In this document: positions 3,965-21,079 of the stretch, in pieces
Position numbering within the stretch: position 1 is the stretch's first letter
Layout of the letters: every line of letters starts with the position of its first letter
Source: a virus
Reading direction: 5' to 3' (one strand)
Length of the DNA stretch: 23,092 nucleotides
IMG/VR virus record: IMGVR_UViG_3300042294_002873
Location: 1-23,092 of that record
Made by a program: the position numbers and the translations under genes
The notes under the pieces: generated by a model
Told to the model about the DNA's origin: nothing
The model's input: only the letters and a program-made list of their open reading frames with translations
Database searches by the model: none

Positions 3965-4290
3965 CGGGGGTCGTTCGGTGCTGCGGTGTGGCCCCCGGTG
4001 TTGTTAGACAATGCTGGACATTCTTGGACACTGCAAGCCTTTTTTTTAAGGGGCCAATCCAGATGCCCCCAGTCCCGCGGCTCGGTGACCTCCGTGGCCT
4101 CACCGCAGACACCGCATTTGCCCGGGTGATACGTCGCGCCGTAGGAATTACCCGCCGGTCGGCGACCATAGGCGCGTCCGCACGGCGCGCAAATCCAGTC
4201 GGGGTATTTCGGCGCGAAAATGGCCTCGTAGTTGGCACGGTATATGCGGCCATTCACCGGCCGCGGCGTGTCGCCCTTGCCTGCACTCAT
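3961..4290 (-). CDS. Zinc-ribbon-type hypothetical phage protein
   Basis: A 109-residue protein beginning MSAGKGDTPRPVNGRIYRAN, an opening seen in many small phage proteins of unknown role. Two cysteine pairs, CAPC near residues 34-37 and CGVC near 59-62, are well placed to bind one zinc ion. The last 30 residues (from about PLKKKACSVQEC) are encoded over a cluster of TGTCC decamers (4006-4030), so this tail may be a by-product of regulatory DNA. Both ends are ATGA overlaps with neighbours. Function unknown; nucleic-acid binding is only a guess from the zinc ribbon. Confidence 0.75.
   Translation of the reverse strand: MSAGKGDTPRPVNGRIYRANYEAIFAPKYPDWICAPCGRAYGRRPAGNSYGATYHPGKCGVCGEATEVTEPRDWGHLDWPLKKKACSVQECPALSNNTGGHTAAPNDPR
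4006..4030 (-). promoter_or_regulatory. TGTCC decamer cluster A
   Basis: On the minus strand TGTCC, TGTCC and TGTCT recur at exact 10-bp intervals (plus-strand GGACA at 4026-4030 and 4016-4020, AGACA at 4006-4010). The same arrangement appears at 9494-9610, 9925-9949 and 12346-12370. This copy lies in the 3' end of the zinc-ribbon gene, about 40 bases ahead of the next ATG (3964), so it could govern an internal promoter ahead of the dnaB block. A direct-repeat operator is an inference. Confidence 0.55.
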
Positions 4291-4817
4291 TTCGCCGCCC
4301 CCTTTAGTTTGTGATAGCAGCTTAAAACAAACTCCGCATAATCAGGAAGGTCGCCTCCGCCCAATTCCTTGAGTGCAACAGACAGCATCTCCGCACACTC
4401 CCGCCATTGGTCGCGTTCGCTCTCCAGTTCTTCGATACAATCAGCTTGGCGAAAGGTTATCGCCCTTTCCTCGTCGCGCTCGCGCTCTGCCGTGCTCCAA
4501 CACAGCAACGCCTCGACGTGCAAATTGGCCAACTCACGCAGCGTGCTCGCCCCGCCGGCCAACACCAGCGCTTCATCGCGCTCTCGACGGAGTTCATCCC
4601 GCTCTTGCTGCGCCATGTGCAAATCCTCCGCAAGCCCCGTGTTGGCGTTCCGCAAGTTTTCAACGTCCTTTGGAAGCATTCCATCTGGTAATCCATCGGC
4701 TAATTTGTCTGCATAGGCTCGCGCTTCATTCCGCTCACGTTCCATTTGCTGTGCAAACTCGGTTGGAACCACATGGTTTCCCCGTGCTAGGTTGTCTGTT
4801 TCGGGCGTGTCGCTCAT
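4287..4817 (-). CDS. Coiled-coil hypothetical phage protein
   Basis: A 176-residue, strongly charged helical protein. The opening MSDTPETDNLARGNHVVP followed by TEFAQQMERERNEAR is a recurring arrangement in phage hypothetical proteins ('PxTD... VVP..FA..LERE...'). Glu/Arg heptads run through residues 22-85 and 105-150 (ERDELRRERDEAL, ERERDEERAI, ELESERDQWREC), predicting an extended coiled coil. No enzymatic motif is visible. It lies in the ATGA-coupled early operon. Role unknown. Confidence 0.78.
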   Translation of the reverse strand: MSDTPETDNLARGNHVVPTEFAQQMERERNEARAYADKLADGLPDGMLPKDVENLRNANTGLAEDLHMAQQERDELRRERDEALVLAGGASTLRELANLHVEALLCWSTAERERDEERAITFRQADCIEELESERDQWRECAEMLSVALKELGGGDLPDYAEFVLSCYHKLKGAAK

Positions 4818-5014
4818 TTTGTTTCCTCGGTAAAATCGTCGTCGCTAAACATCGGGCGCCCGCGCTCGTCCAAAAATGGAAAGTGGTGCAACGCCTCGCT
4901 CGCCCGCCGCTTCAGCTCGCCGATAGTCTTCGGGCGCCTCTGCGGGTTTAGCAGGTCCCCCAAAAGGTCGCGGCTTTTGCGCAAGGCGCGGTGCTGCTCG
5001 TAGCGAAGGCTCAT
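4814..5014 (-). CDS. Small hypothetical phage protein
   Basis: A 66-residue protein starting MSLRYEQHRALRKSRDLLGD, then a proline/arginine-rich stretch and a helix ELKRRASEALHHFPFL. The C-terminus is acidic (DDDFTEETK). I do not recognise it. I chose the ATG at 5014 because it overlaps the TGA of the preceding 59-residue gene; a longer start at 5104 would sit inside that gene. Composition (helical, basic front, acidic end) is typical of small phage early proteins. Confidence 0.72.
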   Translation of the reverse strand: MSLRYEQHRALRKSRDLLGDLLNPQRRPKTIGELKRRASEALHHFPFLDERGRPMFSDDDFTEETK

Positions 5015-5190
5015 CGCACGCGAATCTTTTTGCTGAAAAGCCACGCACTCTTCCGGGCCTCTGGCGGCGGCATTAGGCCACGCGAGACCAGAAACCGGTC
5101 GCACGCACGCTGCACCTGCAAGTGGTAAATATACGGCACGCCGGCGGTGCCGTCTTCGAGCTTCAGCGTCTTGCCGTTCATCGTGGTCAT
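5011..5190 (-). CDS. 59-residue hypothetical protein with strong SD
   Basis: Encodes MTTMNGKTLKLEDGTAGVPY, then IYHLQVQRACDRFLVSRGLM and a basic end (WLFSKKIRVR). AGGAGG is seven bases before the ATG, one of the best ribosome sites in the window, and the TGA overlaps the next ATG (5014). Both ends therefore fit the operon, which is why I keep it although it is short. No family recognised; no cysteine motif or membrane helix. Confidence 0.72.
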   Translation of the reverse strand: MTTMNGKTLKLEDGTAGVPYIYHLQVQRACDRFLVSRGLMPPPEARKSAWLFSKKIRVR

Positions 5191-5357
5191 TTTTCTTCCT
5201 CCTGTCCGTTTAGAAAAATGAACACCGCGCGCAATGCCGCCATGCTGCTGATAGCATCATCAAATAAATCAATGACGGCTTCGTTGTTAATGGTGAGTTG
5301 CTGGTTTTTCCGGCGCGGGGCGACGGCTTTCTTCGGGGTGGGTTTGGCTTTTTTCAT
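5187..5357 (-). CDS. 56-residue basic-to-acidic hypothetical protein
   Basis: Encodes a lysine/proline-rich N-terminus (MKKAKPTPKKAVAPRRKNQQ) and a helical C-terminal half around AVIDLFDDAISSMAALRAVF, ending QEEEK. The final bases encoding GQEEEK double as the AGGAGG ribosome site of the next gene, and the TGA overlaps that gene's ATG. No SD is seen before this ATG. The basic N-terminus could bind nucleic acid or be a disordered tether. Function unknown. Confidence 0.65.
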   Translation of the reverse strand: MKKAKPTPKKAVAPRRKNQQLTINNEAVIDLFDDAISSMAALRAVFIFLNGQEEEK

Positions 5358-5371
5358 GGATATAAAGAGTT

Positions 5372-5827
5372 TTATACGGCGAGGGGTAGGACACTGACTG
5401 TCTTAGGCCCAAAAAATGTTAGCGATTCTGCGACGTCGTCGAGCAACTCCCAGTTATTGGGTTTACGGTGTCGGGTTGGGTTGTAGCGCACAGTCAATCG
5501 GCTGCGGATGTCCTCAAATGTCCAAAAGACAAACTGATTGCGATCCGGTAGGTAGGCCGCCAACACGTCAAAATCGTGCTGCTCATAAGGGCGGGCCTTT
5601 TGGCCACCAGAATTGCGCCTAACCGATATGTGGTAAGCGCCGCGGTCGAGCGTGGCCGTTTTCACTTGGACGGCAATCGGTCGGACGCCATCCCGGGTGA
5701 GCAACACGTCGGCTGTCTGAGCGTGACCGAAGGGCGTAAAAATCTCCCAATCGTTGACCATCGCGCCGGCGATAAACAGCGTCTCGCTGATTTCTCCCTT
5801 CCGGCAGGCTGAAAGTTGTTTTGTCAT
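5372..5827 (-). CDS. PD-(D/E)XK endonuclease-like protein (PDDEXK_5-like)
   Basis: A 151-residue protein that resembles a family of small PD-(D/E)XK proteins often found near mobile DNA. Motifs: KGEISE at 10-15 (helix glutamate), FTPFGHAQTADVLL with D40, and VQVKTA at 53-58 with Q54 and K56. These fit the D...(E/Q)xK active-site pattern; the glutamine at the usual E position is a known variant. The C-terminal part (QFVFWTFEDI, then NPTRHRKPNNWELL) is typical of the family end. The start is an ATGA overlap with the initiator gene upstream. It is the third nuclease-fold protein in this early region. It may process or cut DNA, but catalysis is unproven. Confidence 0.78.
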   Translation of the reverse strand: MTKQLSACRKGEISETLFIAGAMVNDWEIFTPFGHAQTADVLLTRDGVRPIAVQVKTATLDRGAYHISVRRNSGGQKARPYEQHDFDVLAAYLPDRNQFVFWTFEDIRSRLTVRYNPTRHRKPNNWELLDDVAESLTFFGPKTVSVLPLAV

Positions 5828-6621
5828 GCTGCTCCTCTCATCTTTTGCTCCATATCCAGCATCCGGCGCTCGGCCGCCGAGGGCTGCCGCGGGCCGGTCG
5901 GCATGGGGACAACCTTAGGGGCTTCCGCAGGGCGGTCGATAAACACGCCCCGCCAGCCGTGCTTGACGCTCTTGCGCAAAGCCTCGACGGCGATGGACTC
6001 ATTGACGGCTCCCAGATCGTCCACGATGCGCTTGGCCGCGGTCGGGGTGAGCGGCGCTTTGATTTCCCTGCGATGCTGTGCAAATTCCGCCCAAGCACGC
6101 GCTAACCCCGGACCATGAGGCAGGGGCAAAGATGCTGGGTCGAATTTCGGGGGCGAGGGACGTTTAGGGGAAGAAGAAGGGAGCGAAGGCGACGCAGTCG
6201 CCGGAGCGGGCGCGTCAGCGCCTTTATTACGTTCCTTTATGTTACTTATAGTTGGGGTCTCATTCTGACACCACTTGGGTCTCATTCTGACACTACTTGG
6301 GTCTCTTTCTGAGACCGGTCTCATTCTGAGACCCATCTCGTTTGCCACTCCGGGAATCTTCCAAATCGACGCCTCAGCACCATCGCCGGCCAGCTTGCGG
6401 TGGCCCTTTTCGACCATGATCAGCTCGCCGCGGTCTTGCAGGCGACGCAGGCAGCGGGCCACAGTGGCGCGGGCCAGCCGGGTCTTTTCCTCCAGCTTGC
6501 CCCAAGAGCCAAAACAGTTGCCCTCCTCGTCGGCAAAGTCGGCCAGAGCCAGCAGAACGAGCCTATCGGCGCCTTCCGCAGGCGACTGCGTCCAGACGTA
6601 GTTGGTAGCGGCGACACTCAT
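5824..6621 (-). CDS. O-like replication initiator with winged helix
   Basis: A 265-residue protein with an N-terminal winged-helix/HTH (about residues 8-85: ADRLVLLALADFADEEG, then CFGSWGKLEEKTRLARATV and RCLRRLQDRGELIMVEKG). This 'rapid growth-phase HTH' layout is shared with phage replication initiators and host-like DnaD/O-type proteins. Residues 95-125 are encoded by four iterons (see 6256-6332), followed by a disordered serine/proline linker (135-165) and a C-terminal helical domain (LARAWAEFAQHRREIKAPLT) that would contact DnaB. Such internal iterons are the hallmark of lambda O-type genes, where the protein binds the repeats in its own gene. Start is an ATGA overlap with the upstream gene. 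It is very likely the origin-binding initiator that recruits the DnaB encoded downstream. A transcriptional regulator is the alternative. Confidence 0.78.
   Translation of the reverse strand: MSVAATNYVWTQSPAEGADRLVLLALADFADEEGNCFGSWGKLEEKTRLARATVARCLRRLQDRGELIMVEKGHRKLAGDGAEASIWKIPGVANEMGLRMRPVSERDPSSVRMRPKWCQNETPTISNIKERNKGADAPAPATASPSLPSSSPKRPSPPKFDPASLPLPHGPGLARAWAEFAQHRREIKAPLTPTAAKRIVDDLGAVNESIAVEALRKSVKHGWRGVFIDRPAEAPKVVPMPTGPRQPSAAERRMLDMEQKMRGAA
6256..6332 (+). repeat. Four iterons: candidate phage replication origin
   Basis: Four 16-bp copies: GGTCTCATTCTGACAC at 6256-6271 and 6278-6293, GGTCTCTTTCTGAGAC at 6300-6315, GGTCTCATTCTGAGAC at 6317-6332. Start-to-start spacings are 22, 22 and 17 bp. 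The last two are near-perfect dyads (GGTCTCA-TTC-TGAGACC), as lambda iterons are. AT-rich sequence (about 6224-6252, TTTATTACGTTCCTTTATG and on) lies directly beside the array, a plausible melting region. The array sits within an initiator-like gene, as in lambdoid phages. Confidence 0.8.
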
Positions 6622-7016
6622 CGGGCTTTCAGTAGGCGGGATTTGCGGCTCACATCGGCACTCTCAAACACTAGATCACCCTCCACCGAGGCCATTCCGG
6701 TGTAACGAGCCTTGAGGCGGTTGTGCGGCGGGTTCGACGGCAGCCAGCTCTGCGCGTCTTTCACCCAGCAGCGCACCGGCTGACCCCAGTCGGGCACCTC
6801 GACAAACAGCAGGCGAGGGTGGCGAGCGGGCTGATGCTTGCATATCACCGCGCCGACCTCATCGCCGGCACTGTAGCCAGCCTTGGCGGCGGCCGCCTCG
6901 GCCTGCTCCTTGGGGCTAAGAGGCGGCTGCATGGGCTTGTCGGCAGGTTTCTCTGTCGGTTGACTGACGGTTTGGCTAATGGTGGACTTAGCGCGGGTGA
7001 GGATGTCTTTGATCAT
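6618..7016 (-). CDS. Hypothetical phage protein with C-terminal beta domain
   Basis: A 132-residue protein not recognised. It begins MIKDILTRAKSTISQTVSQP, continues with a proline/lysine-rich linker and an alanine-rich helix (SPKEQAEAAAAKAGYSAGDE), then a domain rich in strands and tryptophans (LLFVEVPDWGQPVRCWVKDA, SWLPSNPP) up to a basic end. The ATG at 7016 is preferred over the TTG at 7082, which has no SD at suitable distance. It is the first gene after a 162-bp gap and ends in an ATGA overlap with the initiator, suggesting that it is the promoter-proximal partner of the initiator. Its SD is weak. Confidence 0.68.
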   Translation of the reverse strand: MIKDILTRAKSTISQTVSQPTEKPADKPMQPPLSPKEQAEAAAAKAGYSAGDEVGAVICKHQPARHPRLLFVEVPDWGQPVRCWVKDAQSWLPSNPPHNRLKARYTGMASVEGDLVFESADVSRKSRLLKAR

Positions 7017-7178
7017 AAGGTTTTTATTAAAAATTTCGGGAGACCGAAGCGGTTGGGGGGATTGAAAAAATCTGAAAGCCAAGACCCCCGCCCCCCCTCC
7101 ATAAGTCGATACAATGACTCTTATGTATAGTGGCTCTACTCTGTTGTCTCATTAACAGTCTCATCACTTTGCGAGTCA
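7017..7178 (-). promoter_or_regulatory. 162-bp intergenic region, candidate promoter for the initiator block
   Basis: No gene is seen here. Reading the minus strand, a -10-like TATACAT lies at 7129-7123 but no good -35 at 17 bp could be found. GTCTCATT at 7146-7153 and GTCTCAT at 7158-7164 repeat the first half of the iterons (GGTCTCATT) 12 bp apart, so the initiator might bind here and control its own operon. A C-rich tract occupies about 7084-7100. All regulatory meaning here is inference. Confidence 0.35.
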
Positions 7179-7760
7179 TTATGCAGGTTCCTCTGTAGGG
7201 CCAGTCTCAATCTCAACAATGGGCGAGGGGAGTGCAGCCGCCTTTTGAGCCGCGGCCGTATCTGTGCCGACCGGTTCCACGACAACATCAACGACATTGG
7301 CGCTCCTCAGTCCGCTGACAAAGTCCTGCCAAGAGTCAGCCGCGGGCGCCATCACATGCTCGACACGCTGCGTTGCTCCGCCGGAAAGCAGCTCGCTCTT
7401 CTCAGTGGCGACAGCCGACATGATGGTGAGTTCGTGAGACTTCATATCTGGCACGCGCTCAAAGAGTTCCGCCGTGCCGAGCGCTGCCAGAGTTTTCCAG
7501 TTCTTCGCAGTGATCTCCCTGGCACGCTCTAGCAGTTCCGGCCGGTTGCGAATCAGCGCGACGACCGTGTGGTGCGACGTATTGAATGCTCGGCAGATTT
7601 GCTTCACGCCCATTCCGGCGAGGTGAGCCGCGGCGATCTTCTCGGCCTTGGCCTCCGGCACCTCAAGTCCTGTGCTGCCGTGGATCACGACAGGCGCGAT
7701 CTCCGGCTCTTGTTTTTTAGCCTTTGGCTTGGCTTTTGATTTGGTCCGCGGTCTTGCCAT
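7179..7760 (-). CDS. HTH DNA-binding phage protein
   Basis: A 193-residue protein with a very basic N-terminal tail (MARPRTKSKAKPKAKK) and an HTH at about residues 36-72: AEKIAAAHLAGMGVKQICRA, then FNTSHHTVVALIRNRPEL. This 'recurrent step plus recognition helix' pattern (GxxxxxIcrxfnxSxxTV) is that of resolvase/terminase-small-subunit style HTHs. A helical region follows (ELLERAREITAKNWKTL, LGTAELFERV) and a low-complexity acidic C-terminus. It could be a transcriptional regulator of the early operon or a terminase-small-subunit-like protein; its position in the early block, away from any terminase large subunit, favours a regulator or DNA-organising role. It starts two bases after the upstream stop; no SD is visible. 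Confidence 0.68.
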   Translation of the reverse strand: MARPRTKSKAKPKAKKQEPEIAPVVIHGSTGLEVPEAKAEKIAAAHLAGMGVKQICRAFNTSHHTVVALIRNRPELLERAREITAKNWKTLAALGTAELFERVPDMKSHELTIMSAVATEKSELLSGGATQRVEHVMAPAADSWQDFVSGLRSANVVDVVVEPVGTDTAAAQKAAALPSPIVEIETGPTEEPA

Positions 7761-7762
7761 GG

Positions 7763-8098
7763 TCAGTAAATAAAAACGCCGCTACGGGGCAAATCGCCCG
7801 ATGCGCTCTCTGTAGAAATCTCCCTTAGCTGTCGGGCCACATTCGCCAACACCCTCTGAGCGTCAGCCTTGGTGCCGATCACCTTGAAGATGACCAAATG
7901 CCCGCCACAAACCGCCCAGGCGCAGCGCACCAGCTTCAGCCCCGAGCGCAGATACTTGGACGCCGCAGCGATGCGCGATTGGATGCGCCACTCGTTGTGA
8001 GCGACCGGCCAAGCGCAAAGGGACGCGCCGGGATTGGAACCCGGGGCCGGCAAGCGTTTACGCCGGCGAGGCATATGCTCCGCGTCTTGAATCTTCAT
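7763..8098 (-). CDS. Hypothetical protein
   Basis: A 111-residue protein not recognised. Its N-terminal 30 residues are basic and rich in proline (MPRRRKRLPAPGSNPGASL) and the rest alternates short helices and strands (IAAASKYLRSGLKLVRCAWA, LVIFKVIGTKADAQRVLANV). I set the start at 8098, where the ATG overlaps the TGA of the preceding 59-residue gene; the longer reading from 8134 would lie inside that gene. The PGSNPG stretch comes from a tRNA-T-arm-like DNA sequence, but no tRNA is present (see rejected items). Confidence 0.68.
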   Translation of the reverse strand: MKIQDAEHMPRRRKRLPAPGSNPGASLCAWPVAHNEWRIQSRIAAASKYLRSGLKLVRCAWAVCGGHLVIFKVIGTKADAQRVLANVARQLREISTESASGDLPRSGVFIY

Positions 8099-8274
8099 GC
8101 TACGAGCTTTTGCAGCAGGACGTGCTTTTCCCATGGATCAATCTGCTTTGTTAAATGGAACCCATTGCAATACGGGCATTGGTAAACCTTCATCTTCGGC
8201 CGGCAGCGACGTGCCTCTCGCGGGCTGTAAAACAGCCGCTTGCGTCCGCACATGCGCCATTCCCGAAAGCTCAC
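8095..8274 (-). CDS. 59-residue zinc-finger-like protein, GTG start
   Basis: Starts VSFREWRMCGRKRLFYSPRE and continues through RRCRPKMKVYQCPYCNGFHL. Cysteines C24 (RRC) and CPYC with a histidine at CNGFH can form a small zinc site, as in short phage CxxC proteins. A perfect AGGAGG lies seven bases before the GTG, and its TGA overlaps the next ATG. These signals decide the start even though no ATG is available upstream. Role unknown; RNA or DNA binding is possible. Confidence 0.72.
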   Translation of the reverse strand: MSFREWRMCGRKRLFYSPREARRCRPKMKVYQCPYCNGFHLTKQIDPWEKHVLLQKLVA

Positions 8275-8286
8275 GTCCGCGCCTCC

Positions 8287-8496
8287 TCACTTCAGCCGGT
8301 AGCAGGAATAGCGTTTACCGTTGCGGTGCAGCGTCCGGGACGTAATCCGGTGGCCGTCACCGCGCAGCTCCTCGATGCGAGCCGCGAGGCGCATACAGCG
8401 GTATTGCGTGTAGGCGCTCATCTGCGTGATCGGCAGTCCGCGCTTGAGGTGTCTGAGAATACGTTGAGTTTGTGTGGTGGGGTTGGTGGGCTTCAT
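8287..8496 (-). CDS. Small HTH-domain phage protein
   Basis: A 69-residue protein matching a compact HTH: TTQTQRILRHLKRGLPITQM (helix and turn), SAYTQYRCMRLAARIEELR (recognition region), then a basic wing HRITSRTLHRNGKRYSCYRL. It resembles small phage HTH proteins in which a 'TQxxRIL.HL..G..IT..' start precedes an R/LAxRIxxLR helix. I chose 8496 because this ATG overlaps the TGA of the upstream gene. Could regulate the early operon or act on host RNA polymerase; there is no direct evidence. Confidence in existence and fold is good. Confidence 0.76.
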   Translation of the reverse strand: MKPTNPTTQTQRILRHLKRGLPITQMSAYTQYRCMRLAARIEELRGDGHRITSRTLHRNGKRYSCYRLK

Positions 8497-8669
8497 GGTT
8501 TGCGTTTGGTGAAAATGTTGCGGCAGACCTGCATAATTGCGTCGGTTGGCAGGCACGGCCGGCCGCCGTAGTAGGTGCGGGCCTTGGGCTTCTCCGCGGC
8601 GCGGGCGCGCAGCCATTCGTCTACGAGGTCAACCTCGCGGTCGGTGGGTGAGTAGGGCAGGGGGGTCAT
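8493..8669 (-). CDS. 58-residue hypothetical protein
   Basis: Encodes MTPLPYSPTDREVDLVDEWL then a basic middle (RARAAEKPKARTYYGGRPC) and DAIMQVCRNIFTKRKP. The ATG overlaps the TGA of the coiled-coil gene (8666-8668) and its own TGA overlaps the ATG at 8496. No family is recognised. Its two cysteines (C39 and C49) are too far apart for a classic zinc knuckle. The composition is that of a small basic phage protein. Confidence 0.65.
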   Translation of the reverse strand: MTPLPYSPTDREVDLVDEWLRARAAEKPKARTYYGGRPCLPTDAIMQVCRNIFTKRKP

Positions 8670-8932
8670 GCTGCCACCTCCAGTTGCCGCTGCTTGTAGG
8701 CCCGCAGCATCGCCTCAAGCCTCAGCACGTCATCGCGCAGCTCATCATTGTCCTCTTCCAGCTCCGCAATACGGTTCTTGAGCTGGTAAGTCTCGCCGCG
8801 GTAACTGTCTCGCGCTGCCCGCAGACAGCGCACCAGATCGTCCTTGTCGATCTTGTCGCGGTAGGCAGTGAGCTGGTGCTCCGTGTTGCGAAGCTGGGCT
8901 TCCAATATAGCGATGCGCTCCTCGCAGCTCAT
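8666..8932 (-). CDS. Coiled-coil phage protein
   Basis: An 88-residue protein that is almost entirely coiled coil: ERIAILEAQLRNTEHQL at the front, and IAELEEDNDELRDDVLRLE near the end, with leucines in heptad positions. A short linker (DKDDLVRCLRAARDSYR) joins the two helices. The start at 8932 gives an ATGA overlap with the upstream stop; the longer MEGGP start is not needed. Such proteins can be adaptors or dimerisation modules. Function unknown. Confidence 0.74.
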   Translation of the reverse strand: MSCEERIAILEAQLRNTEHQLTAYRDKIDKDDLVRCLRAARDSYRGETYQLKNRIAELEEDNDELRDDVLRLEAMLRAYKQRQLEVAA

Positions 8933-9162
8933 TGGCCCTCCTTCCAATTCATCACGGCGCAGTGCGCCGCCAACATCGCCGCGTAATACTCCTTGCTGTC
9001 CGTCATTCCCTCGGTAGCCAGCAGCACACGCTTCAACAGCTCCCGCGCCTCATTGCGCTCCTTGATCAGCCGCAGCATCGGAGAGTCCAGCAAGCACTCC
9101 TCATCGCCACACCCGCAGGCAGCCTCCGAGTGATACGGCGCATCAACCATGAGGTCGATCAT
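8929..9162 (-). CDS. Small cysteine-containing hypothetical protein
   Basis: A 77-residue protein with a cysteine cluster CGCGDEEC near residues 16-23 and a helical remainder (LRLIKERNEARELLKRVLLA). GGAGG lies six bases before the ATG. The ATG overlaps the TGA of the upstream membrane peptide and the TGA overlaps the ATG at 8932. The cysteine cluster could bind metal. No family recognised. Confidence 0.74.
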   Translation of the reverse strand: MIDLMVDAPYHSEAACGCGDEECLLDSPMLRLIKERNEARELLKRVLLATEGMTDSKEYYAAMLAAHCAVMNWKEGQ

Positions 9163-9296
9163 CGCCGGCCTCCAATCCGGTTAATGGCTTCCAGTGCGAT
9201 GAATGCCGCAAATATCACGGCCGTGGCGGACATGAACGTCGAGTCCGTGAGATAGCTCAATACTTCAAGCATGGTGGGTGTCGTGTGGTGTGTCAT
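9159..9296 (-). CDS. 45-residue membrane peptide
   Basis: Encodes MTHHTTPTMLEVLSYLTDST followed by a hydrophobic helix around FMSATAVIFAAFIALEAI and a basic end NRIGGRR. It is a single-pass, positive-C-terminus membrane peptide. The ATG at 9296 overlaps the TGA of the excisionase-like gene, and its TGA overlaps the ATG at 9162. An internal ATG at 9272 would give a 37-residue form with the same membrane segment. Could be a small early membrane protein, for instance affecting the host envelope; that is inference. Confidence 0.65.
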   Translation of the reverse strand: MTHHTTPTMLEVLSYLTDSTFMSATAVIFAAFIALEAINRIGGRR

Positions 9297-9490
9297 AGAG
9301 ACTTGGTGTTATTGAAAGTGCGTTGCTCGATGAACCTCTCCAGCGCCCGCATCGAGATGCGCGTGCCGCGCTGCGGCCCGACCGAAAACGCCGGCAGCTC
9401 ACCGCTGCGGATCGCCTCCTCCAGACGCGAGCGCCGCATACGCAGCGCCTTCGCCGCCTCGGTCACGGTCATGGCAAGTGGGGCATTCAT
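9293..9490 (-). CDS. Excisionase-like HTH protein
   Basis: A 65-residue protein with a winged helix of the MerR/Xis type: MTVTEAAKALRMRRSRLEEA (helix-turn-helix), IRSGELPAFSV, then GTRISMRALERFIEQR. Short proteins of this design are excisionases or anti-repressor-like regulators. It is the first gene of the leftward early operon and faces the plus-strand regulator across a 122-bp region packed with TGTCC decamers. The ATG at 9490 is chosen because the longer frame reads through those repeats. It probably binds DNA near attP or the control region and favours excision or lytic growth. No SD is evident; the decamer GGAC sits in the SD place, so a regulator binding there could also block translation initiation or mask the promoter. 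Confidence 0.76.
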   Translation of the reverse strand: MNAPLAMTVTEAAKALRMRRSRLEEAIRSGELPAFSVGPQRGTRISMRALERFIEQRTFNNTKSL

Positions 9491-9612
9491 CGTTGTCCAA
9501 GAATGTCCAAAGATGTCCGAGTGGTCAACAATTATTTTCGGACAATCTTGGACACATGGGGTGAAGACCCTATTTGACAATTTTCGGACAACAGCGGACA
9601 TTCGTGGACGCT
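9491..9612. promoter_or_regulatory. Divergent control region with TGTCC decamer clusters B, C and D
   Basis: Between the excisionase-like and RHH-like genes. Plus-strand TGTCC at 9494, 9504 and 9514 (cluster B); GGACA at 9540 and 9550 (C); GGACA at 9586 and 9596 plus GGACG at 9606 (D), all 10 bp apart, with a partial TGACA at 9575. A consensus -35 TTGACA lies at 9574-9579 pointing right, with only a poor -10 (GACATT, 9597-9602) at 17 bp, which would start transcription very near the ATG at 9613. On the minus strand TTGACC near 9528-9523 is a possible -35 for the early operon. The layout resembles a phage lysis/lysogeny switch. Confidence 0.68.
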
Positions 9613-9879
9613 ATGACAACACGCACCCGAGCCGACCGTAAGGACAGCAAGTCAGTGACCATCTCGCTGACCCCGTCCGACCATGCTAGGCTCCTACGTC
9701 ACGCACCCGCCCACGCGGTGAAAAACAACAAATACGCCCAGCTCGCCATCCGGTTCTTTATGGACTGCGAGGACGCCTTCGCCGGCCCGCTCAACGAGCA
9801 GTTCCGCGCCATGCTCGTCCGCGACGCCAAAGGCTTGAGCCAGAAACTCGCCAAGCTCCTCAACAACCCCAAAGCCTAA
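9613..9879 (+). CDS. Ribbon-helix-helix-like regulator candidate
   Basis: An 88-residue protein. After a basic tail (MTTRTRADRKDSK) it has a strand SVTISLT followed by helix PSDHARLLRHAPAHAV and a second helix NKYAQLAIRFFMD. A strand followed by two helices is the ribbon-helix-helix fold, whose members bind tandem direct repeats with the strand. The C-terminal region (LNEQFRAMLVRDAKGLSQKL) is helical and may mediate oligomers. It is divergently arranged with the excisionase-like gene, and its ATG sits three bases after decamer cluster D, so it would regulate both itself and the early operon. The start is at 9613 since the longer frame reads through the decamers; no SD is visible, so a leaderless start is possible. 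A lysogeny repressor role is inferred from position, not shown by sequence alone. Confidence 0.65.
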   Translation: MTTRTRADRKDSKSVTISLTPSDHARLLRHAPAHAVKNNKYAQLAIRFFMDCEDAFAGPLNEQFRAMLVRDAKGLSQKLAKLLNNPKA

Positions 9880-9924
9880 GCGCAAAAAACATGACGAAAA
9901 AAATCCGCAAAATTTTAGTTGCCA

Positions 9925-9949
9925 TGTCCAGAATTGTCCGATAGTGTCC
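9925..9949 (+). promoter_or_regulatory. TGTCC decamer cluster E
   Basis: TGTCC at 9925-9929, 9935-9939 and 9945-9949, three units exactly 10 bp apart, ending eight bases before the ATG at 9958. Unlike cluster D, the orientation relative to the downstream gene is reversed. It presumably overlaps the promoter or ribosome site of the 80-residue gene and so brings the plus-strand cargo genes under the same control as the switch region. Confidence 0.6.
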
Positions 9950-9957
9950 ACAACGTA

Positions 9958-10200
9958 ATGAACGCACATACCAGACTAAACATTAATCAAGGCAATCTTC
10001 CCGCATGGGCAAACCAGCAAGCCGAGCGCCTTGCCAAACTGCGCACATTTCAACCCGGGGGCTGGACGGCCGTCGGTAGTGCATCCGCCACACGCAAAAT
10101 CAAAAGCCAATTGCGTGAAGCAGGACTCTCGGGCAGCTGGCTCGACGCAACAATTTTCGATATAACGGATCTTGCTAAACTGATTGCGAGGGCCGCCTAA
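9958..10200 (+). CDS. Hypothetical protein of the lysogeny/cargo block
   Basis: An 80-residue protein not recognised. It opens MNAHTRLNINQGNLPAWANQ, then a helix QAERLAKLRTFQPGGWTAVG, and ends with an alpha-helical region around SGSWLDATIFDITDLAKLIA. The start at 9958 follows decamer cluster E; a longer frame from 9919 would translate the repeats and is rejected. The next gene starts two bases after its TAA, so the two are likely co-transcribed. A small regulator is conceivable from size and place, but nothing shows it. Confidence 0.62.
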   Translation: MNAHTRLNINQGNLPAWANQQAERLAKLRTFQPGGWTAVGSASATRKIKSQLREAGLSGSWLDATIFDITDLAKLIARAA

Positions 10201-10201
10201 C

Positions 10202-10786
10202 ATGAAAACCATCGACGCCCGCACCATCGCCCTGATCGGCTTCGCCGCCAGCCAGTGGGCCGAGGAACGCATCAACGGCAGCCGCCACAGTCGCCGCTAC
10301 CGCCAGCTCATCGCCGCCGGCCTTGCCCTGCACCAGAACGGCGAGCTATACGCATCGGCTCCTAAAATGCGCCGCGCCCTCGCCACCATCGCCCGACACG
10401 CCGCACCTCTGGCCATGCTCCTCATCGCGTGCCTGCTGACCGCCTGCGCCACCACGCCACAGCCCGAGACGTGGAACACCGAGCGCGCCAAGCCCGTCAT
10501 CACCATCGACATCGCCAGCATCCCACCCGGCGCCCTCATCTACGCCAACGCCGAATACGTCGGCACCGCGCCGCTCAAAATGAAAGTCGTCGCCGACCGC
10601 TTCGGCAACTGGGAGCAAAACACACGCATCCAAGCCTACGTCCCGCACGACGTAAAAAACTACGAAGAAGCCGTCTACCCGAGCGGCTTCCGCATACCCT
10701 CCCGGCTCCTCCTCCGCGTCCCAGGCTACACCCATTGGCACTCCGCCACCCAGCAGCGCCCACCGCAACCGCTCACCATTCAATGA
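10202..10786 (+). CDS. PEGA-domain lipoprotein, lysogeny cargo candidate
   Basis: A 194-residue protein. Residues 1-55 are a helical, basic region (SQWAEERINGSRHSRRYRQL); residues 56-81 are a lipoprotein signal (MRRALATIARHAAP, hydrophobic LAMLLIACLL, lipobox LTAC), and the rest includes a PEGA-like domain (ITIDIASIPPGALIYANAEY, VGTAPLKMKV). PEGA domains are surface beta modules on lipoproteins. In-frame ATG at 10367 would start a conventional lipoprotein of 139 residues; the longer form puts 55 residues before the signal peptide, which is unusual. No SD precedes 10367, while a weak GAGG precedes 10202, so I keep the longer form but flag it. As an envelope protein expressed from the lysogeny side it could be a superinfection-exclusion or conversion factor; that is inference. 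Confidence 0.7.
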   Translation: MKTIDARTIALIGFAASQWAEERINGSRHSRRYRQLIAAGLALHQNGELYASAPKMRRALATIARHAAPLAMLLIACLLTACATTPQPETWNTERAKPVITIDIASIPPGALIYANAEYVGTAPLKMKVVADRFGNWEQNTRIQAYVPHDVKNYEEAVYPSGFRIPSRLLLRVPGYTHWHSATQQRPPQPLTIQ

Positions 10787-11007
10787 ACCGCCACGACTAC
10801 TTCTCCACCGGCACCTTCCCATGGGGCGGCATCCGCCTCGCCGGCCGCCGATTCGACAGCCCCGAGCTGTTCAGCATCATGCGCCGGCACCGCCTCTGCG
10901 CCGACAGCATCCGCCACGCCTGCGCCGACCTCGATCTCCTGCCCTACGCCGAAGAATGCGCGGCCATTGAGGCGCATATTTGCCGCACTGAGGCAGCCTA
11001 TGTATAA
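10783..11007 (+). CDS. Hypothetical protein
   Basis: A 74-residue protein, not recognised. The front (MNRHDYFSTGTFPWGGIRLA, GRRFDSPELFSIM) is beta/loop-like and the remainder helical with several cysteines (LCADSIRHACADLDLLPY, EECAAIEAHIC). The ATG overlaps the TGA of the lipoprotein gene (ATGA), and the next gene begins inside its last codons. It is likely translated together with the lipoprotein; a partner role in the envelope is possible but not shown. Confidence 0.62.
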   Translation: MNRHDYFSTGTFPWGGIRLAGRRFDSPELFSIMRRHRLCADSIRHACADLDLLPYAEECAAIEAHICRTEAAYV

Positions 11008-11152
11008 TCCGCGCATGAAAGACCGACACCTGTGCCCACACTGCGGAAGGGCCGTGTACACCAAACAGCAGGAGTTCTGGCAAACCGTCATCGCCGGACT
11101 CGCCGGCCTCGGCCTCGTCGCGCTTGTCGTGATTATCAGCCGACTATTTTAG
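11000..11152 (+). CDS. Zinc-ribbon membrane peptide
   Basis: A 50-residue peptide with CPHCGRA near residues 12-18 and a C-terminal transmembrane helix (VIAGLAGLGLVALVVIISRL). A GAGG sits six bases before the ATG at 11000, overlapping the end of the preceding gene; a second ATG at 11015 would lack five residues. Short zinc-ribbon membrane peptides occur in both phage and host genomes with no uniform role. Its 3' end overlaps the end of the convergent integrase gene by 9 bp. Confidence 0.62.
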   Translation: MYNPRMKDRHLCPHCGRAVYTKQQEFWQTVIAGLAGLGLVALVVIISRLF

Positions 11153-12247
11153 CCCATCCCACACGCTGGCCACGTCCACCTCTCGGTCGTACACCGCATA
11201 GAACCGCGCCGTCGTCTGCGGGCTGGCGTGCCCCAGCATGTGCTGCACCACGCTGATCTTCCCGGTCGCGTTCAGCATATCGCTGCCGGCCTGTCGCCTC
11301 AGCTCGTAGGCCGCCGAGCGTCGATCGGGAATAAACTCGCGCACCCAAGCGTTGAACACCCGCTCCATAAACCTCTTGCGCATGTCCGGCGTGCGTCCGG
11401 CAACGATGTAGTCCACCGCCTCCAGCAGCTCCGGCACCATCCACGCCGGTAGCGACATCACCCGACCCCGCTTGTAGCCCGTCTTCAGCGTCAGCTCTTG
11501 GTCCGGCCGCTCGACGATCACGATCACATGACGGCCCTCCCGCTCCTCAATCCACCCACGGCGGCAGTGCGCACACTCCTTCGGCGTCATGCCGAGGTAG
11601 CGCGTGAGCAGATACCCGCGGCGGATATTGCCGCCGATAGCCTTGCTCGACGCCTCCATTTTCTTGAGGATCTCCGGTTCAAGGCGGATAAACGTCGAGA
11701 CCGAAGCCTTCATGCCGGTCGTGGCCGCGGCGAACTTGGCGATATTGTCCGGCAGATCAAAGCCCTCCCACTGCAGCGGATGGGCAAACACCGCCCGCGC
11801 GCCGGTCAGGTTACTGCGCACGCTGTAGGGGCTACCCTTGTAAGCAGCAACATATTTGCTGATCAGCCTCGGGGTGAGCACCGACAAGTGCAGCGCCCTG
11901 ATCGCCTCATCGCCCTTCTCCGGGTACACGCACCGCAAGACCCGCAGCAGGCAGTTGACATTGCCGTGCCGGCTGGCGATTTTGCTCACCCTTTCGTAAT
12001 GCTCAATCGCCGCTCCAATCGTCCCCGTCGTGTCGCGCCGCGCAAAAGCCCGCAAAGCTTCCAGCCCCTTGGCAGCCGTCGCGTCCATCACGACCTTCGC
12101 CTTGGCCTTCGCCGTGGCCACGTCCTCGGTGCCCAGGCTCATGCGCTGCCGCTGGCGCAGCTCCGGGTGGTAGAACTTGAGCTGCCATTTCGGCGAGGAG
12201 CCGTGCTTGTAAATGCGGCCGGTCAATCCCGAGGTTTTAATCACCAT
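11144..12247 (-). CDS. int: Tyrosine recombinase (phage integrase)
   Basis: A 367-residue integrase that would insert the phage at a tRNA gene. Residues 1-75 form an arm-binding domain (SGLTGRIYKHGSSPKWQLKF), 76-170 a core-binding domain and 190-367 the catalytic domain. Visible active-site residues are K255 or K259 (TLKTGYKRGRV), R317 (YELRRQAG), H340 (MLGHASPQTT) and Y350 (ARFYAVY), the last being at H+10 as in several phage integrases. Two canonical residues are altered: T221 (LGMTPKE) sits where Arg I is expected, and Y314 where His/Lys II is normal. I chose ATG 12247; the upstream frame starts with TTG at 12268. Upstream lies the attP-like site. It is convergent with the cargo block and separated from the excisionase-like gene. 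Family certain; the altered residues deserve a check. Confidence 0.88.
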   Translation of the reverse strand: MVIKTSGLTGRIYKHGSSPKWQLKFYHPELRQRQRMSLGTEDVATAKAKAKVVMDATAAKGLEALRAFARRDTTGTIGAAIEHYERVSKIASRHGNVNCLLRVLRCVYPEKGDEAIRALHLSVLTPRLISKYVAAYKGSPYSVRSNLTGARAVFAHPLQWEGFDLPDNIAKFAAATTGMKASVSTFIRLEPEILKKMEASSKAIGGNIRRGYLLTRYLGMTPKECAHCRRGWIEEREGRHVIVIVERPDQELTLKTGYKRGRVMSLPAWMVPELLEAVDYIVAGRTPDMRKRFMERVFNAWVREFIPDRRSAAYELRRQAGSDMLNATGKISVVQHMLGHASPQTTARFYAVYDREVDVASVWDGLK

Positions 12248-12345
12248 GGCCACACTGTTATCTGCCAAACTTTTCGTGTCAAAAACTTTGGCAAAAGTTT
12301 GGCAGCAACTTTGGCAGAAAGTTTGGCAGCAAACTGCACTTTAGT

Positions 12346-12370
12346 GGACGGGATTGGACTTTACTGGACA
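12346..12370 (-). promoter_or_regulatory. TGTCC decamer cluster F
   Basis: Plus-strand GGACG at 12346, GGACT at 12356 and GGACA at 12366, exactly 10 bp apart (TGTCC-like on the minus strand). It lies between the left arm repeats and the tRNA core, about 100 bases upstream of the integrase start, so the same regulator as at 9491-9612 may act on integrase expression or the intasome. Confidence 0.55.
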
Positions 12371-12396: not shown

Positions 12397-12440
12397 GCAT
12401 CCGTAGCTCAATGGTAGAGCAGTTGACTCTTAACTAATTG
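12397..12440 (+). other. tRNA-Lys(CUU) 5' fragment: attachment core
   Basis: Matches the acceptor 5' strand, D-arm (GCTCAATGGTAGAGC) and anticodon arm through the loop (CTCTTAA, anticodon CTT at 12429-12431) of a bacterial tRNA-Lys. The 3' side of the anticodon stem reads CTAATTG in place of the expected TCAATTG, and no normal T-arm or acceptor 3' strand follows. It is therefore a fragment, not a functional gene. Homology appears to end at about 12433, which would mark one limit of the crossover core. Confidence 0.72.
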
Positions 12441-12499
12441 CCCGGCCCCTTATTTTAGAGGGTCTTCGAGGACTTTGGCTGATAGTTTGGCAGTAATTT

Positions 12500-12533
12500 G
12501 GCAAAAAGAAAGGGCCAGCCGTAGCTGACCCTT
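12500..12533 (-). terminator. Rho-independent terminator after the giant late gene
   Basis: On the minus strand AAGGGTCAGC-TACG-GCTGGCCCTT forms a ten-pair stem (12533-12510, one G-U) capped by a C(UACG)G tetraloop, one of the most stable RNA loops, followed by TTCTTTTT. It lies 34 bases past the stop of the 12567-18509 gene and directly beside the right attP arm, so it keeps late transcription out of attP and integrase. Its T-run touches the last TTTGGCA site. Confidence 0.85.
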
Positions 12534-19958: not shown

Positions 19959-20249
19959 TTATTCCTCCTGTATTCCCGCCGCAGCCCGTGCTTCGAGGCA
20001 CAGTGGTGAACCCGGCACGAAAGCGCGGCAGGCTGCCGGCCGGTGATTGTAAATAGAACACGACACGCCGCAGCCGACCTTGCCGGTCAGCGCCACGCAT
20101 CTATGGTTCGTTGTCTTCATCAAAGGGTAGTCGGTGCGCAGCATCCATGGCGGGATGCCAGCGGCGTCGGAGCGGTCTCGTCGCAGCACAGGCCAGGACC
20201 ACTTGTGAGAGCAGCATGCCCCACACCGTTCACAGTCGAATCTTGCCAC
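19959..20249 (-). CDS. YkgJ-type cysteine-cluster protein
   Basis: A 96-residue protein with the full YkgJ signature: an early CERCGACC motif (cysteines at 6, 9, 12 and 13), an HRCVAL element and CSIYNHRPAACRAF near the end. The family binds a metal or iron-sulfur cluster through these cysteines; the biochemical role is unsettled. The start is uncertain. The GTG at 20249 begins just before the conserved motif (MARFDCERC), while ATG 20324 adds 25 residues of unrelated look. Both overlap the PP-loop gene's 3' end, by 130 or 205 bp. The gene ends four bases before the next start. Its pairing with a PAPS-reductase-like enzyme suggests a shared sulfur or iron chemistry. The family is clear, the start is not. 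Confidence 0.68.
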   Translation of the reverse strand: MARFDCERCGACCSHKWSWPVLRRDRSDAAGIPPWMLRTDYPLMKTTNHRCVALTGKVGCGVSCSIYNHRPAACRAFVPGSPLCLEARAAAGIQEE

Positions 20250-21079
20250 GTCGGGCGGAAGCCCTGCGCTTCCGATTGTAGGTCGATGTAGGGCGCCAGA
20301 GAGCTGATGTTGTTCGTCTCGCATGAGTTCTTAGGACAGTATACCGTCTCGCCCAAGTGCCGGTTGATGCAGTTCCAGCAGACCGGGTAGTAGTCCGAGT
20401 TCGCGCTCTTGTCCTTGCGGTGCCGCCACACGCCGTCCGCCTTTTCGTAGCGCGTCTCGTCATTAGGAACGCCCTCGGCTTCCAAGTAATTCCACACCTC
20501 GGCATCCGACCAATGGCGCATAGGATAGTATTGCGTCGGCACACCGGCCTGCACCAAGGCGTCCTGCGCCAGCGGCACTTGGCCCTTGATGAGATCCACG
20601 TCGGCCGACTTTTGGCCGTGGAAAGCGGCGTCCCAAGGAAAGTTAAAGGTGCCGGTCGGGCGCTTCAGAGCATCCAGCCCGCAGAGGTAGCGTCCGCTGG
20701 CCAGCTCCTCCGGTTGCGGCTCTTCGGTGCCGAGGCAGAGGAACATCACCTTCCGCGGCGCCATCTCATACATCTTCACAAAGTCAAAGCGCGGCACGCC
20801 GGTCTCGATGTCGTAGCCGTCCGTCAGCGCATAGCCGAGCGGCGACCAGTCATACATCTCCAAGTCCCAAGCCTGCGCCAGCATGTCCGAATGCGCATAC
20901 CGGTGCCGGAACCGCGGCTCCCGCCACTGCACCACCGGCGTCTTGGCGCCCACCTTGAAGCGGATCAGGTGCAGCATCGCAGTGCTGTCCTTGCCGCCGC
21001 TCCAGAGCACGACAGGGTTGGCGCTGGCGGCGAGCCAGCGTTCCACCTTGCGGCAGGTGTCTGTGACGAGTTGATCCAT
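20120..21079 (-). CDS. PP-loop PAPS-reductase-like (DndC-like) enzyme
   Basis: A 319-residue protein of the adenosine nucleotide alpha-hydrolase superfamily. The PP-loop SGGKDS lies at 27-32 in VVLWSGGKDSTAML, followed by PMRHWSDAEVWNYL at 186-199, the typical family element. CWNC at 234-237 with cysteines at 248 and 253 (YCPKNSC) could ligate a 4Fe-4S cluster, as in DndC and related enzymes that handle sulfur. Substrate cannot be read from sequence: PAPS reduction, DNA or tRNA thiolation are all possible. The last 50 residues (from about 270) look like untypical read-through, coding out of frame over the YkgJ gene. Start: a TAATG overlap with the 511-residue gene. Sitting within the virion block, not the early block, makes late action or virion packaging possible. 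Confidence 0.8.
   Translation of the reverse strand: MDQLVTDTCRKVERWLAASANPVVLWSGGKDSTAMLHLIRFKVGAKTPVVQWREPRFRHRYAHSDMLAQAWDLEMYDWSPLGYALTDGYDIETGVPRFDFVKMYEMAPRKVMFLCLGTEEPQPEELASGRYLCGLDALKRPTGTFNFPWDAAFHGQKSADVDLIKGQVPLAQDALVQAGVPTQYYPMRHWSDAEVWNYLEAEGVPNDETRYEKADGVWRHRKDKSANSDYYPVCWNCINRHLGETVYCPKNSCETNNISSLAPYIDLQSEAQGFRPTWQDSTVNGVGHAALTSGPGLCCDETAPTPLASRHGCCAPTTL

Follow-up and report, generated by a model that had tools for sequence, protein, structure and literature searches.

Helix-phased TGTCC arrays in an uncultured temperate phage: predicted operators of a ribbon-helix-helix repressor and a probable excisionase site at attP

Repeat clusters of the window

The IMG/VR virus record IMGVR_UViG_3300042294_002873 carries six clusters of the unit TGTCC, or its complement, repeated at 10-bp steps, and the question raised by this locus is which viral protein or proteins read them. 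The record was analysed over its complete length of 23,092 bases, referred to below as the window. Judged by its genes for a DnaB helicase, an O-like initiator, a T7-type single-stranded DNA-binding protein, an integrase (Int) and an internal virion protein, and by its phage attachment site (attP), the window is a temperate phage. The initial annotation had proposed one operator system, read by the ribbon-helix-helix (RHH) product of gene 9613 and coordinating early genes, cargo genes and integration. Comparison with related phages led us to a divided assignment, which we consider likely: clusters A–E would be RHH operators over the promoters of xis, rhh, dnaB and the cargo genes, and cluster F a site for an excisionase of the HTH_17 family.

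All six clusters of the initial annotation were recovered in place, with strict 10-bp steps. Only clusters B (9494–9518, plus strand) and E (9925–9949, plus) contain three exact TGTCC units. Clusters A (4006–4030, minus) and D (9586–9610, minus) have two exact units each and one with a single mismatch, cluster C (9540–9554, minus) has two units, and cluster F (12346–12370, minus) consists of one exact TGTCC unit together with GGACG and GGACT. The check proposed with the initial annotation, a search of the window for TGTCC(N5)x3, gave 10 overlapping matches with at most 3 mismatches against 0.59 expected from 100 dinucleotide shuffles; the shuffle maximum was 3, and 0/100 reached 10. The best promoter unit after compiling was TGTCC[AG]NNNN (TGTCCR-N4). 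The structural half of the window was free of clusters. A near-identical contig, L011, with RHH, HTH_17, DnaB and Int proteins 98–100% identical to those of the window, retained the four three-unit arrays detected by the cluster scan.

Comparison placed the predicted operator arrays over putative promoters. Cluster A covers a leftward promoter of gene 3761 and dnaB (−35 at 4036–4031, −10 at 4013–4008), cluster B the leftward promoter PL of the HTH_17 gene, xis (−35 at 9528–9523, −10 at 9505–9500), and cluster D the rightward promoter PR of the RHH gene itself (−35 at 9574–9579, −10 at 9597–9602). Cluster E belongs to a rightward cargo promoter ahead of gene 9958 (−35 at 9919–9924, −10 at 9942–9947). 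The two units of cluster C lie between the back-to-back promoters and vary among relatives. In the predicted layout a TTG-type −35 is followed by a 17-bp spacer, and the units occupy the spacer and overlap the −10, a placement that would block RNA polymerase.

Arrays in related phages

Relatives comprised about 40 contigs recruited via the integrase and two (L009 and L035) recruited via the repeat pattern. The gene order int, cargo genes, RHH, control region, HTH_17, replication genes, DnaB was kept across them; in L153–L155 and L163 the regulator module was inverted relative to int. Arrays were found at the promoters of RHH and HTH, behind the RHH gene before a cargo gene, and ahead of DnaB, the last being kept in 20 phages, window included. 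Pattern searches of the full records located arrays at attP and the early positions just named, and few elsewhere. Positions were thus shared and letters changed: the unit was TGTCCR in the window lineage and TGCCWA in most other lineages. Autocorrelation at PR and attP peaked at 10 in all four lineages, with z values of 4.7 to 9.2 versus random windows, which are inflated, the phages being related.

A scan of viral contigs for TGTCCR x3 returned mostly chance matches. Contigs L030 and L081, with opposed clusters, were rejected, both regulators being absent; the L030 cluster falls within an 816-aa open reading frame. The integrase scan of GTDB genomes found no prophage, and no related integrase or RHH protein was found in cultured phages.

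The two candidate regulators

The RHH protein (9613–9879, plus strand; 88 aa) has the pattern KSVTISLTPSDHARLLRHA...NNKYAQLAIRFFMD, compatible with strand-helix-helix. Among its relatives, that of L141 matched Pfam HicB at 7.3e-5, the sole pass of the curated cut-off, and that of L131 at 0.0004. No solved-structure relatives of the RHH protein were found.

The neighbouring 65-aa protein (9293–9490, minus strand) matched Pfam HTH_17 at 2.8e-11. Its best solved relative by sequence was the Xis of mycobacteriophage Pukovnik (1.4e-6), followed by BldC, and a Foldseek search placed Xis, RdfS and BldC on top, none with E below 0.001. By these matches it is a small winged helix-turn-helix (HTH) protein related to known Xis. 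Proteins of the HTH_17 fold form head-to-tail filaments on direct repeats spaced by about one turn (PMC5859096, PMC11963761, PMC7498355), and therefore both RHH and HTH_17 are serious candidate readers of the repeats. The initial annotation had named the RHH gene alone and had overlooked the Xis-like gene.

In L134, L136, L148, L153, L157 and L158, a short remnant of the HTH_17 start usual in the family (MHAHLAL-like) was seen between the leftward promoter and HTH_17. What follows it is a different HTH_17 gene, which has an additional TGCC array of its own, as if recombination had replaced the excisionase gene.

Assignment of the arrays to the regulators

Natural swaps separated the two proteins. 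L132 and L134 are 89% identical in Int and 89% in RHH, and only 32% in HTH. Their promoter arrays are alike (GCCAACA, TCCAAC, GCCAACA at 10-bp steps), and the attP array differs, CGTCCAACAACGTCCAACAAA being replaced by TTGCATCTGGTTGCAATTGA. The same contrast recurred between L133 and both L153 and L158, with RHH 97% identical. In the reciprocal pair, L155 and L163, Int is 95% and HTH 89% identical, and RHH 37%. Here the attP arrays are alike (GAGTTGATCTGGTTTGATCTG and TAGTTGGTTTGAGTTGAACTGG), and the array upstream of DnaB goes from TGCCA letters (TGCCAACATTTGCCAACATATGCC) to TGTCC (TGTCCATGTTTGTCCATAAATGTCC).

Correlations over the family pointed the same way. In partial Mantel tests with 22 phages, the PR array was associated with RHH (0.78) and the attP array with HTH (0.62), the crossed pairs giving 0.35 (PR with HTH) and 0.19 (attP with RHH). 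Since the crossed pairs also gave small p-values, the ranking weighs more than permutation p-values. Among about 20 conserved proteins, RHH ranked first for PR (0.85) and for the DnaB array (0.71; HTH 0.41), and HTH first for attP (0.73; RHH 0.50). The DnaB array lies about 5–6 kb from RHH and closer to HTH, and RHH sits between HTH and attP in most phages compared; given these distances and this order, the reverse of each assignment is what linkage would favour. Int, which adjoins attP, is the exception to this argument, and the L132/L134 pair separates it from HTH. From these comparisons, operator letters follow the RHH protein, L035 excepted, and attP array letters follow the HTH_17 protein, with variants in L136 and L155.

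Attachment site

Cluster F lies on no recognisable promoter. It is located between arm-type repeats TTTGGCA, read from the sequence at 12263–12328 (12263–12269 on the minus strand; 12287, 12298, 12310 and 12322 on the plus strand), and an attP core at 12400–12440 (plus), which resembles the 5' part of a tRNA gene and occupies the same place in relatives. The TTTGGCA repeats step by 11–12 bp and are separate from the 10-bp arrays; further arm-type repeats were read on the opposite side of the core (12474–12503, plus). The tyrosine integrase itself is encoded at 11144–12247 (minus), its start placed at ATG 12247. Excisionases bind between Int arm sites and the attP core, and helix-turn-spaced direct repeats occur at this place in the window and in relatives. 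Cluster F is thus a probable excisionase array. In phages of the GER type the GTCC array was kept at attP although the promoter array letters are TGCCA.

The operator system of the initial annotation was therefore upheld for the early and cargo promoters, which bear the arrays and whose letters follow the RHH gene. Its inclusion of integration in one regulon was not: the attP cluster tracks the HTH_17 gene, sits at the excisionase place and in most relatives is unlike the promoter arrays.

The tRNA likeness of the attP core varies; it is Lys-like in the window and of other kinds in relatives (L131 and L138, upstream of int), though the integrases are related.

Cargo promoter cassette

In the T-type relatives, TTG stands exactly 6 bp before the first unit in 12/12 cargo arrays (background TTG 1.8%). 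Cargo arrays precede several unrelated proteins of 73 to 322 aa, some of which share only their first codons (MNTHT...). The sequence of the cargo arrays suggests a portable promoter-operator cassette. Exact matches to its pattern were found in 4 IMG/VR contigs, all of this phage family, and in 0 of 84,980 GTDB species genomes; the phage host was not identified. The cargo gene behind cluster E (9958–10200, plus; 80 aa) had no family match.

L009, L143 and L144 carry unrelated cargo proteins with common first codons (MNTHTNTMGAANTTAA); none of three such proteins compared with Pfam gave a match. Because unrelated cargo proteins share these codons, cassette exchange may recombine at the promoter and gene start. 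The start codons at 9490, 9613 and 9958 lie only about 9–10 nt past the predicted −10, and many genes behind arrays open with CA-rich codons (ATGAATACACACACC...). This short distance together with the codon usage suggests leaderless or nearly leaderless messages.

A partly palindromic element, GGGGTGAAGACCC, was observed at 9555–9572, midway between the divergent promoters. It is recognisable in most relatives (TAGGGTTTTCACCCCAT in L133) and is perhaps a site for another regulator.

Proposed model and alternatives

The arrays, their positions, protein homology and co-variation were taken from sequence, and from them we infer the following scheme of binding, repression, lysogeny and excision. 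RHH would bind TGTCCR units on one helix face, probably cooperatively and with one dimer per unit. Accumulating from its own promoter, it would coat the arrays and silence the early and cargo promoters, namely its own, the leftward early one that serves xis and then the replication genes, the internal one before dnaB and the cargo promoter at 9919. In a naive cell that the phage has just entered, all array promoters would fire together until RHH builds up. At induction xis would be expressed, and the HTH_17 excisionase would fill the GTCC array at attP, probably as a head-to-tail filament, steering the integrase toward excision. Most studied temperate phages use HTH repressors of the CI or C type. 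No HTH_3 protein was present in the records of 15 relatives (20–48 kb, possibly incomplete), for which reason RHH is the best candidate by sequence for the lysogeny or early repressor.

Several observations weigh against this division of labour. The sigma-70 consensus scan lists none of the predicted promoters, which rest on comparison. The HicB score of the window's RHH protein is weak (0.054) and its AlphaFold monomer poor (pLDDT 58.5), the latter as would be expected if its strand forms only in the dimer. Int correlates with attP at 0.70, nearly as well as HTH. L136 and L155 have identical HTH proteins and different attP units, GGTTGCATTT and GGTTTGATCT, variants that share the register. 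L035 has TGTCC arrays though its RHH groups with the TGCCA clade; its array, being inverted, is missed by the automatic scan and was entered by hand. At RHH position 16, predicted to face DNA, L035 has H, the TGCCA clade F or Y, and the TGTCC clade T, so that T or H versus F or Y matches TGTCC versus TGCCA throughout. L035 fits RHH only if this position is decisive, an argument noticed post hoc. Finally, promoter and attP units look alike in the window lineage, where both contain GTCC, which is compatible with sharing; in SYAT- and GER-type relatives they differ.

The likeness of the two array kinds in the window also feeds the alternative that the HTH_17 excisionase alone binds all six clusters, in the manner of Apl of phage 186 or Cox of P2, with RHH in another role. 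Apl has direct repeats 10–11 bp apart at attP and pR-pL (PMC7498355), the fold is that of direct-repeat binders, and the L035 promoter letters go with the HTH clade and not the RHH clade. Replacing HTH at constant RHH nevertheless left the promoter arrays unchanged (L132/L134, L133/L153), replacing RHH at constant HTH changed the DnaB array (L155/L163), and that array correlates better with RHH; we regard this alternative as improbable. Still less probable is the reading of the initial annotation, that RHH alone binds all clusters including attP. The attP units contain GTCC in the window and its nearest relatives, but promoter and attP arrays differ in all other lineages, attP follows HTH over RHH in the partial correlations, and the GER-type attP stays GTCC although the RHH of these phages reads TGCCA. 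As for a dispersed host repeat or a chance feature without phage function, considered in the initial annotation as the alternative, the host itself could not be scanned; yet the arrays keep fixed positions on the map of related phages, their letters vary together with a phage gene, and the cassette pattern was confined to this family, so this explanation is extremely unlikely.

It is conceivable, though rather unlikely, that in the window lineage two proteins of unrelated folds, the RHH repressor and the winged-helix excisionase, have come to read one and the same GTCC direct repeat of 10 bp. In that case the attP array could be covered by the repressor in the lysogen, and at induction the promoters could be invaded by the excisionase, so that immunity and excision would be coupled by competition for common sites.

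Comparison with known systems

Apl and Cox likewise have, at attP and the early switch, direct repeats spaced by roughly one helix turn (PMC7498355). Here the promoters are arranged back to back rather than face to face, and attP and promoter arrays follow two proteins in most relatives; the differing units of the SYAT- and GER-type phages do not fit a dual regulator of this type, and the window lineage is ambiguous. Pukovnik Xis, RdfS and BldC, the matches of the HTH_17 protein, line up head to tail on direct repeats at about one protein per turn; the unit sequence and the phage family are new, and the function here is a predicted one.

F55 of SSV1, a small viral RHH regulator, maintains the lysogenic state and acts on tandem repeats at its own promoter and several early ones (PMC5569661, PMC9608457). 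Predicted RHH tandem operators at the own promoter are similarly present here, as cluster D and its counterparts in relatives. SSV1, in contrast, is an archaeal virus with an 11-nt unit and archaeal promoters, and kinship by close sequence was not established. Reg of pLS20-family plasmids (Reg_p576) is an RHH repressor with operators on the promoters of many accessory (establishment) genes (PMC8708921), and the proposed burst at entry is comparable to that of establishment genes. Reg_p576 belongs to a conjugative plasmid, and its operators flank the promoters, whereas here they fill the spacer. Literature searches on RHH with direct repeats returned nothing useful.

Each part is of a known kind; what is new is their combination within a single phage family, together with the cassette and the natural swaps of specificity. 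Early promoters in this uncultured family appear to be controlled by a small RHH protein acting on arrays with a 10-bp step. The swaps offer a ready test of RHH site choice (T/H versus F/Y at one strand position for TGTCC versus TGCCA), and the cassette shows how accessory genes could plug into repressor control and offers a means of locating cargo genes in metagenomes. The family is also a warning that similar-looking repeats phased to the helix can, within one phage, belong to two different proteins.

Other genes of the window

A lipoprotein-like cargo protein is encoded at 10202–10786, with a weak PEGA-domain match (0.00062) slightly below the cut-off. The early operon contains a PD-(D/E)XK endonuclease-family protein at 5372–5827 (PF11645, 1e-12). 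Amid the structural genes, a PAPS-reductase-like protein is encoded at 20120–21079, with 85–87% identity to its counterparts in L135–L137.

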